Origin: Sphingomonas sanxanigenens DSM 19645 = NX02 | GTDB taxonomy: Bacteria > Pseudomonadota > Alphaproteobacteria > Sphingomonadales > Sphingomonadaceae | Direction: 5' to 3' | DNA: 64,000 nucleotides | Assembly: GCF_000512205.2 (NCBI RefSeq) | Contig: NZ_CP006644.1 | Coordinates: 5,601,501 to 5,665,500 of the forward strand | Shown: positions 40,071-49,296 of the stretch, piece by piece | Layout of the letters: every line of letters starts with the position of its first letter | Position numbering within the stretch: the stretch's first letter is position 1 | Position numbers and translations under genes: made by a program | The notes under the pieces: generated by a model | Told to the model about the DNA's origin: nothing | Database searches by the model: none | The model's input: only the letters and a program-made list of their open reading frames with translations

Positions 40071-40706
40071 TCAACCGGCGGGGCAGTGCGCCCCGCTTTC
40101 GACCCACGCCTTGATCAGCGCGCCGAACTGCGCCTGCGTGCCCGGCGCGGGCCTCCTCCCTTCGCCGGGATGCCAGGCCCAGCCGACCAGATGATCCTCG
40201 CCCATGTGCGGGATCAGCTTCTGCAGCGTGAACCCGCCGTTGCGCCGGGGATCCTTCACCTGTGCGCAGATCTGCGTCAGCGTCCGCCCCTGCCAGGCCA
40301 TTTCCGCCGGCGCCAGTCCCCAGTGCGGATTGCCCGGGATGGTCTTGATGCCGGGGCTCGATGTCGGCTGGTTCTCGGCGCCGTGGCAGGTCGCGCAGGG
40401 CAGGCCCGCCGCGCCATGGTCGCTCACGCCGCCGACCATCGGCGGCACGTGCGGGCGCAGATGGTCGCCCTGCGTGGGCACGCGCGTCGCCGGATGGCAG
40501 TTGAGGCAGCGCGGATGCTGGATCACCTTGCCCGCTTCCACGAACAGGGCCGCGGAGCGCTTTGCGGGATCGCGGATCGACGCGAAGCTCTCGACGCTGC
40601 GAAGCGTGTCGCCGGATACGCCGTCGGCCGCCGGCGAGGGCGCGATGGTGCCGCCGAGCGCGAAGGCTGCCAACACCGGCAGCAGGCGGGTCGCCGCGGC
40701 GCTCAT
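40071..40706 (-). CDS. dihaem cytochrome c, electron-transfer subunit of a Mo hydroxylase
   Basis: A 211-residue protein with a Sec signal (LLPVLAAFALGGTIAPSPAA) and two haem c motifs, CLNCH and CATCH. Between them is HLRPHVPPMVGG and after them GLAPAEMAWQGRTL. The ATG at 40704-40706 overlaps the stop of the Mo subunit (ATGA). Such small cytochromes accompany isoquinoline 1-oxidoreductase-like enzymes in alphaproteobacteria and pass electrons to the respiratory chain. Confidence 0.9.
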   Translation of the reverse strand: MSAAATRLLPVLAAFALGGTIAPSPAADGVSGDTLRSVESFASIRDPAKRSAALFVEAGKVIQHPRCLNCHPATRVPTQGDHLRPHVPPMVGGVSDHGAAGLPCATCHGAENQPTSSPGIKTIPGNPHWGLAPAEMAWQGRTLTQICAQVKDPRRNGGFTLQKLIPHMGEDHLVGWAWHPGEGRRPAPGTQAQFGALIKAWVESGAHCPAG

Positions 40707-42850
40707 GCCGAGAGCCCCGTCATCGCGGGTTCGAGCGGCAGCGATCGCAATCGCCTGCCGGTCGCCGCGAAGATCGCATTGACCACCGCGGGCGCGACCA
40801 CCGTCGTCCCCGGTTCGCCGACGCCGCCGGGATCCTCGCGATTCTCGATCAGCACGACCTCGATCTCCGGAACCTCGTTCATCCGCACCACCGGATAGTC
40901 GTGGAAGTTGGATTGCTCGATCTGCCCGCCGCTCATGGTGATGCGGCCGTAGAGCGTCATGCTGAGACCGAAGAGCACGCCGCCCTCGATCTGCTGGCGG
41001 ACGATGTTGGGATTGACCATCTGGCCGCAATCGATCGCGCAGGTGATCCGCGTCACCTTCACCCGGCCGCTTTCCGCCACCTGCACCTCGGCGACGAGGC
41101 CGACATGGCTGCCGAAGCCGCTCAGGATCGCAACGCCGCGCCCGCTGCCCGTGGGCAAGGGGTTGCCCCAGCCGGACGCCGCCGCCAGCCGATCCAGCAC
41201 GTTGAGGATTCGCGATCCCGGCGCGAGCAGGCGGCGGCGATAGGCGACCGGATCCTGCTTGGCGCGCGCTGCCAGCTCATCCATCGCCACCTCGACGGCG
41301 AAGCCGTTGCGGGTTTCGCCGACGCCCCGCCAATTGCCGGCCAGCAGGCCCGGCGGCGGATCGTTGCGGACGAAATCCACCGCGACGTTGGGGAATTGAT
41401 AGGGCCCGAACGAGGAATTGGTGACGTCGAGATCGATACCGTCCTTGAAGAAGGCGGCGAGGAACCAGGCCATTATCGCGGGGCCAACGATGCGATGCTC
41501 GAAGGCCAGTGGATTCCCGGCCGCGTCCAGCCCCACCCGTATGCGGCTGTGGTTGTGGTAGCGATAGGAGCCGTGGCGCATATCCTCGTCGCGGCTCCAC
41601 ATCACCTTGACCGGCGCATCGACCTGCCGCGCGATGAGCGCCGCCTGCACGATCCATTCGGACTGCAGCCGCCGGCCGAAGCCGCCACCGACGAGATGAT
41701 TGGTGACGCTGACCTTTTCGGGCGGCAGTTTCAGCGCCGCCGCCACCTCGCGCCGCGCACGGCCGGGCACCTGGCTGCCCACCCACACGTCGCAGCGGTC
41801 GGCGCGGGCGTGGACGGTCGCGTTGAGGGGTTCCATCGCCGCGTGCGCGAGCATCGGCATGCGATAGACCGCCTCGAACTGCGCGGCGGCGTCCTTCATC
41901 GCGGCGGCGGCATCCCCCTTGCTGTGCGCGGTCAGCCCCTGCCGTTCGAGCGCGGCGTCGCAGCCGGCGACGAGGTCTGCGGTGGACAATCCAGTGCTGC
42001 CGCCCTCCCATATCGGGGCCAGCGCCGCGAGCCCCTTGCGCGCCGCGCCGGTGTGTGCGGCGATCACCGCGACCGCATCGGGCAGCCGCACGACCTGGGT
42101 GACGGCTGCCACCGCCAAAGCCGGCGCGTCGTCCACCGATTTCAGCCGCCCGCCGATGACGGGGCAAGCCGCCACCGCGGCATAGCGCATGCCGGGCAGC
42201 CGCACGTCGAGCCCGAATATGGCACTGCCATCGACCTTGCCCGGCGTATCGGTCCGCCGCGCGCTGGTGCCGATAACGCGAAAGTTGCCGGTCTTGAGCG
42301 GCGGATCCTTCGGCACCGGCAGCGCCGACGCTGCTTGCACCAACGCACCGTAGGACAGCGACCGGCCACTGCCGGGATGCAGCACCCGTCCGCCCTCGGC
42401 CGCGCAGGCCGACGGGGCGACAGACCAGCGCTTCGCCGCCGCCTCGATCAGCATGATCCGCGCTGCGGCACCCGCAGCGCGCAGCTGCTTCCAGGCGGCG
42501 CCAAGGCTTGCCGAGCCGCCGGTTATCTGTTCGCCGAAGACCGGGCTGCCATAGAGCGTGTCGTCGCCCGGCGCATGCTCGGTGCGCACCGCACCCGGCT
42601 CGACCTCGAGCTCCTCGGCAACGAGCATCGCGGCGGAGGTCAGCGAGCCCTGCCCGATCTCGGCATAGGGCACGATCACGGTCACCAGGCCGGCGCGATC
42701 GATGCGGACGAAGGCGTTGGGATGCAGCGCACCGCCAGCGGCGGGCGCCGCGGCGGAGAGCCGGACGCCGATCACCAGGTCGCCGGCAAGCGCGGCGGCA
42801 GCCGCCAGAAAGGTCCGGCGGCTGGTGACGAGCGGGGGGGCGGCGGCCAT
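40703..42850 (-). CDS. molybdenum hydroxylase large subunit (isoquinoline 1-oxidoreductase / aldehyde oxidase type)
   Basis: A 715-residue molybdopterin-binding subunit. A Tat signal (SRRTFLAAAAALAGDLVIG) precedes domains with PNAFVRIDRAGLVTVIVPY, EIGQGSLTSAAML, GTSARRTDTPGKVDGSAIFG, MEPLNATVHA, VGGGFGRRLQSEW and GVGEPGTTVVAPAVVNAIF, the conserved C-terminal Mo-binding text where Glu of GVGEPG is the catalytic base. It forms a heterodimer with the 2Fe-2S subunit upstream. Substrate may be an aldehyde or N-heterocycle; none is indicated by neighbours. Confidence 0.93.
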   Translation of the reverse strand: MAAAPPLVTSRRTFLAAAAALAGDLVIGVRLSAAAPAAGGALHPNAFVRIDRAGLVTVIVPYAEIGQGSLTSAAMLVAEELEVEPGAVRTEHAPGDDTLYGSPVFGEQITGGSASLGAAWKQLRAAGAAARIMLIEAAAKRWSVAPSACAAEGGRVLHPGSGRSLSYGALVQAASALPVPKDPPLKTGNFRVIGTSARRTDTPGKVDGSAIFGLDVRLPGMRYAAVAACPVIGGRLKSVDDAPALAVAAVTQVVRLPDAVAVIAAHTGAARKGLAALAPIWEGGSTGLSTADLVAGCDAALERQGLTAHSKGDAAAAMKDAAAQFEAVYRMPMLAHAAMEPLNATVHARADRCDVWVGSQVPGRARREVAAALKLPPEKVSVTNHLVGGGFGRRLQSEWIVQAALIARQVDAPVKVMWSRDEDMRHGSYRYHNHSRIRVGLDAAGNPLAFEHRIVGPAIMAWFLAAFFKDGIDLDVTNSSFGPYQFPNVAVDFVRNDPPPGLLAGNWRGVGETRNGFAVEVAMDELAARAKQDPVAYRRRLLAPGSRILNVLDRLAAASGWGNPLPTGSGRGVAILSGFGSHVGLVAEVQVAESGRVKVTRITCAIDCGQMVNPNIVRQQIEGGVLFGLSMTLYGRITMSGGQIEQSNFHDYPVVRMNEVPEIEVVLIENREDPGGVGEPGTTVVAPAVVNAIFAATGRRLRSLPLEPAMTGLSA

Positions 42851-42851
42851 C

Positions 42852-43313
42852 TCAGGCCGCCTGCGCGGCAGCGGCCGCCTGTTTGATCGCCGTACGGATG
42901 CGGCCATAGGTGCCGCAGCGGCAGATATTGCCCGACATCACATGGTCGATATCGGCATCGCTCGGCGCGGGGTTGGCGGCGAGCAGCGCCGCCGCCTGCA
43001 TCAACTGGCCCGACTGGCAATAGCCGCACTGGACGACCTCGATATCCAGCCACGCCTTTTGCAGCGCCTTGCCCGCGGTCGTGCCGCCCAGCGCCTCGAT
43101 CGTCATCACCTCGGCATCGCCCACCGCCGACACCGGCAGAACGCAGGCGCGCTTGGGCACGCCGCCGACGTGCACCGTGCAGGCACCGCACATCGCGATG
43201 CCGCACCCATATTTGGTGCCGGTCAGCCCGACGACGTCGCGAATGACCCAGAGCAGCGGCGTATCGTCTTCAACGGCGGCGTCGTGGACACGCCCATTGA
43301 TCTTGAGTTGCAT
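42852..43313 (-). CDS. molybdenum hydroxylase small (2Fe-2S) subunit
   Basis: A 153-residue iron-sulfur subunit with two [2Fe-2S] clusters: plant-type [15 protein letters not shown] near 36-50, and the C-terminal motifs [12 protein letters not shown] and [11 protein letters not shown]. It relays electrons from the Mo centre to the cytochrome c. It is first in the operon: 2Fe-2S, Mo subunit, cytochrome c; ATG at 43311-43313 after a GGGGTG site. A direct-repeat operator lies about 94 bases upstream. Confidence 0.95.
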
Positions 43314-43525: not shown

Positions 43526-46500
43526 TCAGCGGTGAAGATCGATCCGCTCGACAATGGTCCGTTCGCGCGCGCCCGTTCCGCCGCAGGCGATCAGCGCGTC
43601 GAAGGCGCGGACCGCGGCGTCGAAATCGTCGCGATGGCGCGGATTGCAGAAGCCGACGCTCTGTCCCTTGTAGTGCGTCAGCGCCGTCTCCTTGACCGGA
43701 TTGCCCGAGAAGGGACAGGTGCGGTTCACCGTCGCTGCCGGCGTCGGGCGGGCGGGCTGTGCCGGCCGGACGGGCACCGGGGTCGGGCCACCATGGTCCT
43801 GGCCATGGCCCCGCGTCGGATCGGCGGTTTCGGTCGGGGCTGGTCGCTCCGGCCCGCTCGACGATCGCGATGTGGCATGCACTTGCGGCACCGCGAGGGG
43901 GGCGAGCGCCGTGACGCGCGCGCGCGCCGGCTTCGTCTGCTCCTGTGAGAAGGCCGCGATCGCCGCCGCGAAGCGGTCGCGGTGCGCGGGGCTGCAGAAG
44001 CCGACGATATGGCCCTCATAGCGCATCAGCGAGTCGTCGCTGACCGGCCGGCCAGACCAGGGGCAACTGCGGTTGAGCGCACCGTCCGCCGCGCGGCCCT
44101 GCCGGGCGCGGACCGTCGCGCGCAGCCGGTCGCGCAGCGCGGTCAGCAGCACCGTTTCCAGGCAGGCTTCCACCCGGTCGAACCGCCAGTCGCGGTCGCA
44201 GTCGCGCAATACGAAGCCGTCGAACCGGCCGCAGCAATCATAATGCAGCCGCTCGACGGCGCCGGTGACGCAGAATGTCCTGCTCTTCTCGTCCGGGTGC
44301 GCGGGGCCGCCGGGCTTGCCGCCGGTGCCATGGGGATCGGGCGCCACCGCATCCGGATCGCCGCCGAACGCACGCACGCGGTCGCCCAGTTCGGCCAGAT
44401 AGCGCTTGAACACCGGGTACCAGCGATTGCCCTCGGGGATCGCCGCCGCGACATGCTTGAGCACGCCGAGATTGTGGGTAAAGCGCGGCAGCAGCGCGGC
44501 GGCGTTGCGCACCTCGATGCGGAATTCGGTCGAGCCCAACACCTTGTAGGTACGCCCTGAAACCTGCCGCAGCACGATCCGATGGACCTTGCCCTCGCTG
44601 ACGCCGGGCGGCAGCTGGACGGTCATGAGCCCGGCGATCGTCCGGTTGAGCGGCCCAGGGATGGGGATGAAGCCGACATCGCTCACCTTGCAGCGGATCG
44701 TGTCGACAGCGGCGGCGGCGAGGTTGCCCGGCGCCTGCCGTACCGCACCGGCGCGGACGATCTCGCGCGCATCGACCTGCGGCATGTAGAAGGTCACCAG
44801 CGCGTCGCGCGGCAGGTCGCCCCAGTCGATCACCAGTTCGTCCGGGTGCAGCCGCCGGCGGACCGCGGCTGCCGCGTTGCCCGGCGCGAACACCGACTGG
44901 TCGAACGAGACCGGCGACGGCTTCAGTTCGAAGGTGTGGTGCACCAGATGCGCGGCGAAGCTGCCGGGATTGTCCGAATAATCGAACAGGATATTGCGCT
45001 GCGCGATATTATCGGAGGATCCGGGCGTCGCCAGCGGCGGGATCGGATCCTGCGCATAATGGATCTCGGCTACGAGGCACTGGTGCAGCCCGCGCATCAG
45101 TTCCTGGATGCTGCGCAGTCCTTCGGGATCGTCGCCATCGTCGAACGGCCCGTCGGACTGTGGCGAGAGCGGGAAGCGGGCGACGTCCTGGTTCACGTCG
45201 AGCCAGCAGCCGAAATAGCCATGCACCTCGGTCGCGCCCGTGCCGGACAATGTGCGGCGGTTGGTGGGATCCTGCTGGTCGCGCATGTTGGCCGTGCGGG
45301 TCTGCGCGAAGCAGGGAATGTTGTTGACCTCGCCGCCCTCGATCCCGAGCAGCGGCGTCGCCGACGCGCCGTTGCCGAACCGCCGGTAGCTCGCATTGGT
45401 ATCGAATTCGAGCGCCGACCAGCCCGTCGTCCACATCCGGAAGAACAGCCGCACGTCGACCGCATCGACGCCTTCGGGCGCGACGAAGCGCACCCGCGCG
45501 ACAGCATAGTTGAATACCGGATCGCCATTGGCATCGTTGGTGCCGAGTTCGAGCCGATTGACGTCCTGATCGACCGGCAGCCCGTCGAATGGATGATCGT
45601 CCTCGCCCGCCGCACCATTGAGCGCCGCCACGAGGTCGCGGATGTATTGATAGGCATTGTCCGCACCGGCCGCCGGATGCGCGATGTCCGCGACCGGCGC
45701 CTGGCCGGGATTGGCCTTGAACACGCGCAGGTCGACGCTGAGCCAGGGCGGATCGCCGTCGCGCATCCTGGGATTGGGATTTTTGGAGAGCTGCAGCCTG
45801 GTGTCGGCCTGGAACAGCCCGGCGGTCGCCGAGAAGGTCATGTCGATGAAATCCTCGGCCGCCGGAATCTCGTCGAACGCGTCGAGCGAGGTGAAGCGCA
45901 GGCGGACGGGATAGACGATGCGCTGCGCGATATCGGGTTGATCGGATCCCGCCTCATACTGGGGGGCGCCGAAGGATATTTCGACGTCGGGAACGGGGTC
46001 GCCGCCGGGCAGGCGCAGCGAATATTCGATGGGTACCACCTCGTGCGGCATGAAGCCGTCGAACACGACGAACAGCGCTTCCTCGAACGTCGCGGGCGGG
46101 CCGAGCGCATCGACCTCGTGGATCGAATAGGTGGAGATCTCGACGGAGATGACGAGCTTCTGGCGTGACAGGCGGACGAAGGATGCGCGCTCGCATACTC
46201 GCCCCTGATCGTCGATCAGGAACAGCATATAATAGCCCGGCGGGGCGATTTCGGCCGAGGGTGGCGCGTAGATCTCCAACGCGCCGGCATTGAGCGCGTT
46301 GAACTGCAGCCCGACATAGCGCTGGTCCGAATTGAACCCGTGGGTGATCGATCCGCAGCGCATCAGCGCGACCCTGGCGATCTGCTGCGCATCGGGGGTC
46401 GTGACGTAGAACGGCGCGAGATAGCCGATATTGCCGGGGCATTCGGTGATCGTTGGCCGTCCCGCGGCGCCGATATAGGCGGGCGCGAACAGCTCGAAAT

Positions 46501-47743
46501 CGCGGTTGGCACCGTCTGCGGACGTGGTCGAACCGCCGTGCCACACCCGCCCGTCGGGCAGCAGCAGTGCGCCCGAATGATAGCCGCGCCGGGTGGGGGC
46601 GGGTTCATCGATCGTTTCCCAGCGTTCTTCGTCGCTGTTGGAGAAATTGCCCGCGCCCCAGTCGATGCCGGGTGTGTAGAGTTCGGGCTCGCGCGTGGCC
46701 TCGGTCGGATCGTCTGCGCCCGCGGCGCCTTGCCAGCCGCCGGTTACGAGCACCTGGCCCGTCGGAAGCAATGTGGCGCAGCCATGTTCGCGATTGCGCG
46801 CCGCCGCGGCCCCCTGCCGCGGCACCGTCGCGACCCAGGTAGGCGATGCGTCGACGTCAATCCGGAACGCGGTGGCATCGGGGCTGTTGGTGGCGAGCAC
46901 GCGCGCGGGATAATTGGGTGGCAGCAGCGGCAGCAGCACCGACGAGGCCGCGCTGCCGCGGTCATAATAGCTGGGCAGCGTAGCGAGCCCGCCGATATCG
47001 GCCCCGGTCCACACACCGGCATAGGGGTCGAAGATGCGCTTGGGTCCCTCGTCGCCCGCCGTATCCGAGAACAGCAGGCCATCGGGCAGCGCATGGAAGC
47101 GCGGATAGCCATCGGTGGAATAGGCGAAACCATTGGGCGCGGTCAGTGCCGAGGTCATCAAGGTCCACGCGTTGGTGCCCGGCGAATAGCGTTCCGGCGT
47201 GTTGTTGTTGTGCCGCTGCTCGCCATCGGCGGGATAGAAATCGTCGCCGGCGGGATGGCCTCCCGCCGCGAACACCTCGCCATTGGCCAGGGTGACCAGC
47301 GTGGGATACCAGCGCCCGCCACCCTGTGAGACGCTGCCGGGCTGGAAGTTGAGATCGTCAGCGCGGACCCAGCGTCTGGCGCGAGGCAGATAGATCCAGC
47401 ACGCCCGCTCGCCGTCATAATGGGGAAGGTGGATGCCTTCATGCGTCTCCGCCCAGCCGAAGGTCCCGCCGGCCGAGAGGAGCCGTCCGTCGGCAAGAAG
47501 GGATTGGCCGCCGCAGAAACAGTCGGTGTCGGGCAGGGCATCGTCGGAGAAAGTCTCGATCGGGTTGGCGAGACCGGGCGCCAGCCGGTAGAGGCGGCTG
47601 AACGTCAGGTTCTGGACCTGCGCGCCGCCGCCGCTCGCGGCCCAATCGCCGTAATAGAAGATGACACCGTCCGGTTCGGTCGGGAGCAGCGCGGCGTGGA
47701 TCGCGGTGAGCTGCGAATCGTTGCTGATGGTCGTCCAGGGCAT
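43526..47743 (-). CDS. galactose-oxidase-like copper radical oxidase fused to two TRASH/YHS-like modules
   Basis: A 1405-residue protein. Residues about 20-440 form a kelch-type propeller with all copper-radical-oxidase residues in place: Cys77 (DCFCGGQS), Tyr146 (GRWYPT), Tyr388-His389 ([16 protein letters not shown]) and His468 ([11 protein letters not shown]); the Cys-Tyr cross-link pair, axial Tyr and two His ligands. A DUF1929-type domain follows ([16 protein letters not shown]). About 550-1220 is an unassigned region with blocks such as [19 protein letters not shown] and [20 protein letters not shown]. At the end are two Cys-rich modules at 1224-1265 and 1340-1381, CPxSGxPV...YxGxxVGFCxPxHRDxF, 24 of 42 identical. 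No signal peptide is visible from [10 protein letters not shown]; an in-frame ATG at 47776 adds 11 residues. A large multidomain oxidase of unknown substrate. Confidence 0.9.
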
Positions 47744-47950: not shown

Positions 47951-49105
47951 ATGAGCAATCGCGCCATCAAGGCCTGGTATCTTGTCCACAAATGGACGAG
48001 CCTCGTCTGCACCCTCTTCCTGCTGATGCTGTGCCTCACCGGCCTGCCGCTGATCTTCCATGACGAGATCGACGCGCTGACCGAAGATCGGGCGCCGTTG
48101 CGCGCGATGCCTGCCGGCGCGCGGGCGTTGCCGCTCGACGATATCGTCGCTGCCGCCGTACGCCTCTACCCGGGCGAGCGGCCCTTGTTCATGAGCTTCG
48201 ACGACGACCGCCCGGTCGCCAACGTCACCACCGGCCCCACCGCGGACGCCGGGCGTGACGAGATGCACATCACCGCTTTCGACATGCGCACCGCCGAACC
48301 GGTCGGCCCGCTGCTGGAGGAAGGCGTGATGGCGGTGATATTGCGGCTGCATGTCGACATGTTCGCCGGGCTCCCAGGGGAGCTGTTCCTCGGCTTCATG
48401 GGCTTCCTGTTCTTCGTCGCCACCGTCTCCGGCGTCGTGCTCTACGCGCCGTTCATGCGGAAACTGGACTTCGGTGCGCTGCGCTGGTCCCGCAGCCGGC
48501 GGGTCCGCTGGCTGGACATGCATAACATGCTGGGCATCGTCACGCTCGCATGGGTCAGCGTGGTGGGGCTGACGGGCGTGATCAACACGCTCTCCGATCC
48601 GCTGGTCGATTTCTGGCGCGTGGACCAGCTCGGCAAGCTGGTCGCCCCCTATGAGGGGCTGCCGCCGGTGCCGGTGGCCGAATTCGGGTCGCTGGAAGCC
48701 GCGGTGGCTCGCGCCAGGGCTGAAGCACCGGGGACACGGCCGCAATTCGTCGCCTTTCCCGGCGTGCGCTTCAGCAGCAATCATCATTATGCGGTCTGGT
48801 TGAAGGGCGCGACACCGGCGACCGACCGGTTGCTGACCCCGGCGCTGATCGACGCGCGCTCCGGCGATCTCACCGCGATGCGCACCATGCCCTGGTACAT
48901 GCTGGCCCTGCGCCTCTCGCAGCCGCTGCATTTCGGCGACTATGCCGGCATGCCGATGAAGATCCTGTGGGCGCTGCTCGACATCGCAGCGATCGCCATC
49001 CTCGGCAGCGGCCTCTATCTGTGGCTCGGCCGGCGCGCCGGATCGATCGAAACGCGTGTGCGCGAGCTGCGGACCGGCGCCGCGATGCCGGTGCCCGCCG
49101 AATGA
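47951..49105 (+). CDS. PepSY-associated transmembrane protein
   Basis: A 384-residue inner-membrane protein with N-terminal helix LVCTLFLLMLCLTGLPLIF preceded by HKW, a periplasmic segment, two central helices (GFMGFLFFVATVSGVVLY; NMLGIVTLAWVSVVGLTGV) with conserved His near their ends (LDMHNMLG), another periplasmic part and a last helix before a cytoplasmic tail. This is the PepSY_TM (PiuB-like) architecture, linked to iron-siderophore or ferric reduction. It diverges from the copper oxidase gene, so it may be its partner or share a regulator; this is inference. Confidence 0.9.
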   Translation: MSNRAIKAWYLVHKWTSLVCTLFLLMLCLTGLPLIFHDEIDALTEDRAPLRAMPAGARALPLDDIVAAAVRLYPGERPLFMSFDDDRPVANVTTGPTADAGRDEMHITAFDMRTAEPVGPLLEEGVMAVILRLHVDMFAGLPGELFLGFMGFLFFVATVSGVVLYAPFMRKLDFGALRWSRSRRVRWLDMHNMLGIVTLAWVSVVGLTGVINTLSDPLVDFWRVDQLGKLVAPYEGLPPVPVAEFGSLEAAVARARAEAPGTRPQFVAFPGVRFSSNHHYAVWLKGATPATDRLLTPALIDARSGDLTAMRTMPWYMLALRLSQPLHFGDYAGMPMKILWALLDIAAIAILGSGLYLWLGRRAGSIETRVRELRTGAAMPVPAE

Positions 49106-49296
49106 GCACGCCGCGCGCGAAACGCCGCGATGGGCGGCTGGGCAAGGTCTTCGCGATGCCGCTGCTGCTCTGCCTGACCAGCCTTGCCGCGCTGGTGGTG
49201 GGGTTGCTCGACGACGGGCCGTTCGACGTGCTGTGCTGGCTGGGGCTGGCCGCGCCGGTAGCGGCGGCGCTGTGGGCATGGCGCGCGCGAAGCTGA
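49102..49296 (+). CDS. small two-helix membrane protein, 64 aa
   Basis: A 64-residue protein with a basic N-terminus (MSTPRAKRRDGRLGK) and two hydrophobic helices (MPLLLCLTSLAALVVGLL and FDVLCWLGLAAPVAAALWAW). It overlaps the PepSY protein stop by ATGA and so is probably cotranslated and may be a small subunit of that membrane complex. Similar short proteins sit beside PepSY genes in related genomes by my recollection; not verified. Confidence 0.75.
   Translation: MSTPRAKRRDGRLGKVFAMPLLLCLTSLAALVVGLLDDGPFDVLCWLGLAAPVAAALWAWRARS

Follow-up and report, generated by a model that had tools for sequence, protein, structure and literature searches.

The protein encoded on the minus strand at 43526-47743 of the window (the whole 64,000-nt stretch of DNA analysed here) combines an oxidase head with a long conserved module and two short Cys/His modules. 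Our preferred reading, to which we assign a probability of roughly 55%, is that of a mobile scaffold, a chain of immunoglobulin (Ig)-like domains on which interchangeable enzymes of mostly extracellular types are mounted, here a GlxA-type copper radical oxidase. As judged by sequence comparison, the module constitutes an uncharted family that behaves unusually, and it is more the discovery than the oxidase. A preceding inspection of the DNA (the sequence-only reading) had proposed an undescribed system at this locus. This holds for the middle region, whereas the postulated link to a neighboring PepSY protein and the copper-supply role of the Cys/His modules found no support. The gene is made up as follows:

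43526..47743 (minus strand): whole fusion gene, 1405 aa, ATG at 47743 (MPWTT...)
46169..47743 (minus strand): copper radical oxidase head, aa 1-525, kelch propeller and GO-like E_set domain, with C77, W145-Y146, Y388-H389 and H468; Pfam match PF09118 above its cut-off (5.9e-20)
44078..46162 (minus strand): conserved head-swapping module, aa ~528-1222, which follows unrelated heads across about ten phyla
43949..44074 (minus strand): Cys/His module 1, aa 1224-1265 (C1227-x22-C1250-x3-H1254), with a standalone homologue of ~62 aa encoded beside atpD
43601..43726 (minus strand): Cys/His module 2, aa 1340-1381 (C1343-x22-C1366-x3-H1370), aligning with module 1 without gaps

The reading frame is single and without interruption. 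A second in-frame ATG lies 11 codons upstream of position 47743, but the MPW start is common to most homologues in the alignment. Since homologues with the same head-plus-module architecture exist, an assembly join is an unlikely origin of the fusion.

The oxidase head

The head adds a new member to an established enzyme family, the AA5 copper radical oxidases. Cys77, Tyr146, Tyr388, His389 and His468, already noted in the sequence-only reading, are all present and invariant in eight homologous oxidases, and a profile alignment with solved structures places them on the active-site motifs FC, RWYP/RGYQ, YHS and TH of GlxA and galactose oxidase. The structural model of the head matched GlxA (4unm) with a Z-score of 40.4 over 450 residues (rmsd 2.2), galactose oxidase (1gof) with 39.2 and 9n3u with 35.9, the matches to GlxA and galactose oxidase at Z about 40 spanning 435-452 residues. 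From this fold match and the alignment we infer that the five residues cluster in space. The prediction of catalytic competence is thereby strengthened. W145 falls into the column of GlxA Trp288, which is occupied by Ala in the deposited W288A chains 5lxz/5lqi; on the basis of this alignment the second sphere is assigned to the GlxA type, with the stacking Trp immediately preceding the cross-linked Tyr; its counterpart in galactose oxidase, W290, is supplied from another position. Against the NCBIfam GlxA equivalog NF052501 the head reached 128 bits, below the curated cut-off of 800. Taken together, the head is probably a GlxA-type copper radical oxidase with a full set of metal and radical residues, and putatively functional. 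Its substrates would be primary alcohols or aldehydes, either free or glycan-borne, with H2O2 as a product. Copper radical oxidases that lack both a signal peptide and the module, with a similar N-terminus, are also encoded on plasmids of Streptomyces virginiae and Cupriavidus oxalaticus (L026, L027).

The module behind the head

The middle region had previously been regarded as unassignable. No known family was matched indeed: Pfam, NCBIfam, PHROG and PDB sequences contained no relative of the module, the phage and viral collections none either, and a Pfam scan of 35 module members returned no family apart from collagen-like repeat matches in two of them. The region is not unique, however. 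Its ~690 residues share ~30-40% identity with the C-terminal portions of a set of proteins that are mutually unrelated in their N-terminal portions. While a single-protein query of the genome contigs gave no module matches, a query with the module alignment, run as a profile scan across 84,980 species genomes, revealed 39 loci in about ten phyla (Cyanobacteriota, Acidobacteriota, Pseudomonadota, Chlorobiota, Verrucomicrobiota, Actinomycetota, Bacteroidota, Myxococcota, Eremiobacterota and a Bacillota MAG), a lower bound because the scan requires pattern matches. By direct search, the module turned up in only 3 of 398 genomes from the window's phylum, the window's own counted; it is single-copy in the window genome and apparently likewise in the other genomes checked. 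One plasmid-borne copy, from Paraburkholderia sprentiae, emerged from a plasmid search. In a Bryobacterales MAG (L064:9371-12081), the module gene is broken by several stop codons or frameshifts. Our literature search for modular bacterial oxidases with such a domain, itself incomplete, found no description.

The N-terminal parts fell into at least eight clusters of unrelated heads, one of which nearly always precedes the module. Four of these are named by Pfam, namely the GO-like oxidase, pro-kumamolisin/S53 (sedolisin), multicopper oxidase and BNR_2 (sialidase-like) heads; a VPS10-like head gave a Pfam match below threshold, and 'TTNFW', GATase/ThuA-like, HEIAE metallopeptidase-like and PQQ-propeller-like heads, for which there was no Pfam match, were described by inspection. 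One module protein (L037) has no head. The commonest head, formed by the N-terminal ~300 aa of L045, L047-L049, L052, L053, L055, L057, L058, L060 and L061 and marked by motifs such as 'NFW.RYE' and 'GEGLS', lies outside all Pfam families and could be an enzyme that has yet to be named.

On the module tree, a quick tree with SH-aLRT support only, the 10 head classes required at least 11 head changes, against a possible minimum of 9 and a mean of 23 after shuffling; on supported branches, no fewer than three changes fall to the ThuA-like head and two to the sedolisin head. The tree, in which some members are MAG contigs and misbinning is possible, is discordant with taxonomy: the window sequence is nearest to an Acidobacteriota sequence and then to Nodosilinea, Halomonas groups with Nostoc, and Caballeronia with the Bacillota MAG. 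Horizontal transfer accompanied by head exchange is the simplest reading of this topology. In practical terms, searches with the module can lead to new bacterial copper radical oxidases, a group of biocatalytic interest, and to enzyme heads still without a name.

Structure prediction, earlier suggested for residues 550-1220, was carried out with AlphaFold2 on 35 sequences, the plasmid-derived row being left out. In the model, mostly confident over residues 529-1225, roughly four Ig-like beta sandwiches are followed by a helical hairpin and then by a small beta-beta-beta-alpha-beta-beta domain:

45785..46159 (minus strand): module domain 1, Ig-like beta sandwich, aa 529-653; pLDDT mostly >85, Ig-fold matches with Z 7-8.7 over about 100 residues
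44912..45766 (minus strand): module domains 2-3, beta-rich in the model, aa 660-944, with near-invariant C846 and invariant C889
44507..44839 (minus strand): module domain 4, beta-rich in the model, aa 969-1079
44369..44503 (minus strand): helical hairpin with a conserved NRWYPV..RY motif, aa 1081-1125, from model and conservation
44078..44278 (minus strand): small OB-like tail domain in the model, aa 1156-1222, with a coupled Cys pair at about aa 1170/1182

Structure searches with the module gave Ig-fold matches of a generic sort only (Z up to 8.7), for which reason no function was read from them. The order of secondary structure elements in the modeled tail domain agrees with an OB fold, and sequence searches with this domain gave no match. 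It occurs once per genome, on the module protein, with one weak extra match in a single genome (G542). In five members (L033, L034, L036, L037, L039), transmembrane-like C-terminal helices take the place of the OB-like tail domain.

Location of the enzyme

The lack of a signal peptide, pointed out beforehand for the fusion protein, was borne out by a hydropathy scan that detected a hydrophobic N-terminal segment neither in the window protein nor in any homologue scanned. Copper radical oxidases, pro-kumamolisin-bearing sedolisins, multicopper oxidases and BNR sialidase-like proteins are types that are normally exported. The cysteines of the module are a second indication of location. C889 is invariant (35/35 members), and its partner C846 nearly so (30/35). 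In the tail domain, both cysteines of the first pair are present in 14 members and absent from 15, those of the second pair present in 5 and absent from 24, with not a single half-pair in either case. On a module tree built without the tail, the two pairs require at least five and at least two changes (at least seven in all), counts that may be inflated if the tail domain recombines separately from the rest of the module. That the pairs are either complete or missing makes disulfides, and hence an oxidizing compartment, the likeliest cause, although the tail cysteines could alternatively bind metal.

Because most identified heads are of extracellular types and the tail cysteines co-occur in the manner of disulfides, the module may display or anchor its enzyme head outside the cytoplasm, and export would then proceed by a route without a recognizable N-terminal signal. 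Extending this to the whole family, the module might be a signal-peptide-free export-and-display cassette that has spread across about ten phyla by horizontal transfer with head exchange, a proposal that we put forward tentatively. Members without a signal, some of them with C-terminal transmembrane helices, by default imply a cytoplasmic head, and this speaks against the scaffold-display reading. The family thus points either to an undescribed export route or to intracellular enzymes that look extracellular.

The second of these options corresponds to a cytoplasmic or inner-membrane-tethered enzyme, with the Ig chain as an internal spacer and the tail as an anchor to the inner membrane face or to a partner. 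Such an arrangement would be in line with the missing N-terminal signals and with the transmembrane tails of the five members named above. We nevertheless consider it doubtful, as it sits badly with heads that are mostly of normally exported types and with cysteines that co-vary like disulfides; moreover, H2O2 generated inside the cell would presumably be harmful.

A cargo of an injection or release machine, be it an extracellular contractile injection system (eCIS) or cell lysis, with the module as the delivery part, would likewise account for proteins without a signal. Tube genes of the Phage_T4_gp19 type were found in 10 of 38 module-bearing genomes versus 18 of 299 sampled phylum members, two sets that differ in taxonomic mix. 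Most module genomes, however, are without a tube gene, the fusion gene does not lie inside an eCIS locus, and among the ten ORFs around the two gp19-type genes of the window genome no sheath or baseplate gene was recognized, all of which leaves this explanation as a weak and improbable lead. Tandem PF06841 tube-like matches lie at L083:10058-10984 (G000:C1, about 778 kb), with no sheath or baseplate recognized nearby, and paired PF06841 matches occur in other genomes of the family as well.

C-terminal pair, neighboring genes and known systems

The two 42-residue Cys/His modules are identical at 24 of 42 positions without gaps, as reported before, and their alignment score of 140 far exceeds that of 2000 shuffles (mean 20, maximum 46). 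The AlphaFold2 run also covered residues 1224-1385, for which a prediction had been proposed; the segment came out mostly at low confidence. The modules are absent from all other module proteins, including full-length homologues with complete active sites, and so are dispensable for the oxidase family; the earlier idea that they are an integral copper supply for the active site loses its footing here. Relatives exist as standalone proteins of ~62 aa, encoded in 12 of the 119 other family genomes; in the window genome, no copies were found besides the two in the oxidase. In most of the cases inspected, the standalone gene lies directly behind atpD in the ATP synthase operon (L002:1498-1683, L069:1468-1653, L004, L003, L068, L070, L071); in L015 it sits before ffh.

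The proposed likeness to TRASH/YHS domains applies to the standalone relatives, which carry C-x22-C-x3-C and match PF04945 (YHS) weakly (E 0.005-0.009, 16-17 bits, below the gathering score of 30.3). The fused copies have His at the third position, matched no Pfam family, YHS included, and do not fit the YHS/TRASH metal motif, which we take to be C-x(19-22)-C-x3-C. The pair looks like a recent, local, lineage-specific fusion in which the third Cys is now His; metal binding is plausible, and the pair may be a late decoration of the scaffold.

Genes adjoining the fusion gene are:

47951..49105 (plus strand): divergent PepSY_TM protein, 384 aa, PF03929 4.8e-58
49102-49296: 64-aa ORF, diverging from the oxidase alongside the PepSY_TM gene
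40071-43313 (minus strand): [2Fe-2S] subunit, Tat-signal-bearing molybdopterin-binding subunit and cytochrome-c-like ORF

Beyond the PepSY_TM gene and its 64-aa companion lies the rimP-nusA-infB operon (rimP and nusA named from sequence). A partnership of the PepSY protein and the 64-aa product with the oxidase as an electron or metal link, as the sequence-only reading had envisaged, was rejected: the window genome contains 13 PepSY_TM matches, and no PepSY_TM-like protein lies beside the module genes of other loci. The PepSY_TM protein is probably an unrelated neighbor. More generally, no family recurs beside module genes beyond close relatives and common families, and the neighborhoods point to no export machine. 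Directly downstream of the oxidase and on the same strand, the [2Fe-2S] and molybdopterin-binding subunits are of the xanthine-dehydrogenase type, and the set resembles isoquinoline/aldehyde oxidoreductase; a pathway from alcohol via aldehyde to acid can be imagined, albeit with no support from conservation.

A self-contained copper system, with Cys/His modules that load or sense copper and the PepSY protein and its partner as the link, could invoke the C-x22-C-x3-H pattern kept in both modules and the weakly YHS-like relative, but is very improbable given homologues with complete active sites and no such modules, the non-conserved PepSY gene, and the re-oxidation of copper radical oxidases by O2, which needs no electron partner.

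Among known systems, the head comes closest to Streptomyces GlxA (AA5; PMC3543389, PMC11022532), with which it shares the kelch propeller, the GO-like E_set domain, the Cys/Tyr/Tyr/His/His set and the stacking Trp before the cross-linked Tyr. GlxA, however, has a signal peptide, is associated with the cell surface (PMC3543389) and lacks the C-terminal module. The fungal galactose and glyoxal oxidases (1gof, 9n3u) agree with the head in fold and metal site, but have no Ig-chain module either. For the module itself, the Ig-like chains of the adhesins PrgB, ClfB and SdrD show a likeness in their tandem beta sandwiches, with weak Foldseek matches, yet global TM-scores are about 0.1 and a sequence relation is undetectable. 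These adhesins are Sec-exported with signal peptides. Overall, the protein belongs to a known kind, enzymes carried on an Ig-like scaffold; the chance that its module is an unrecognized export or display device is a real one.
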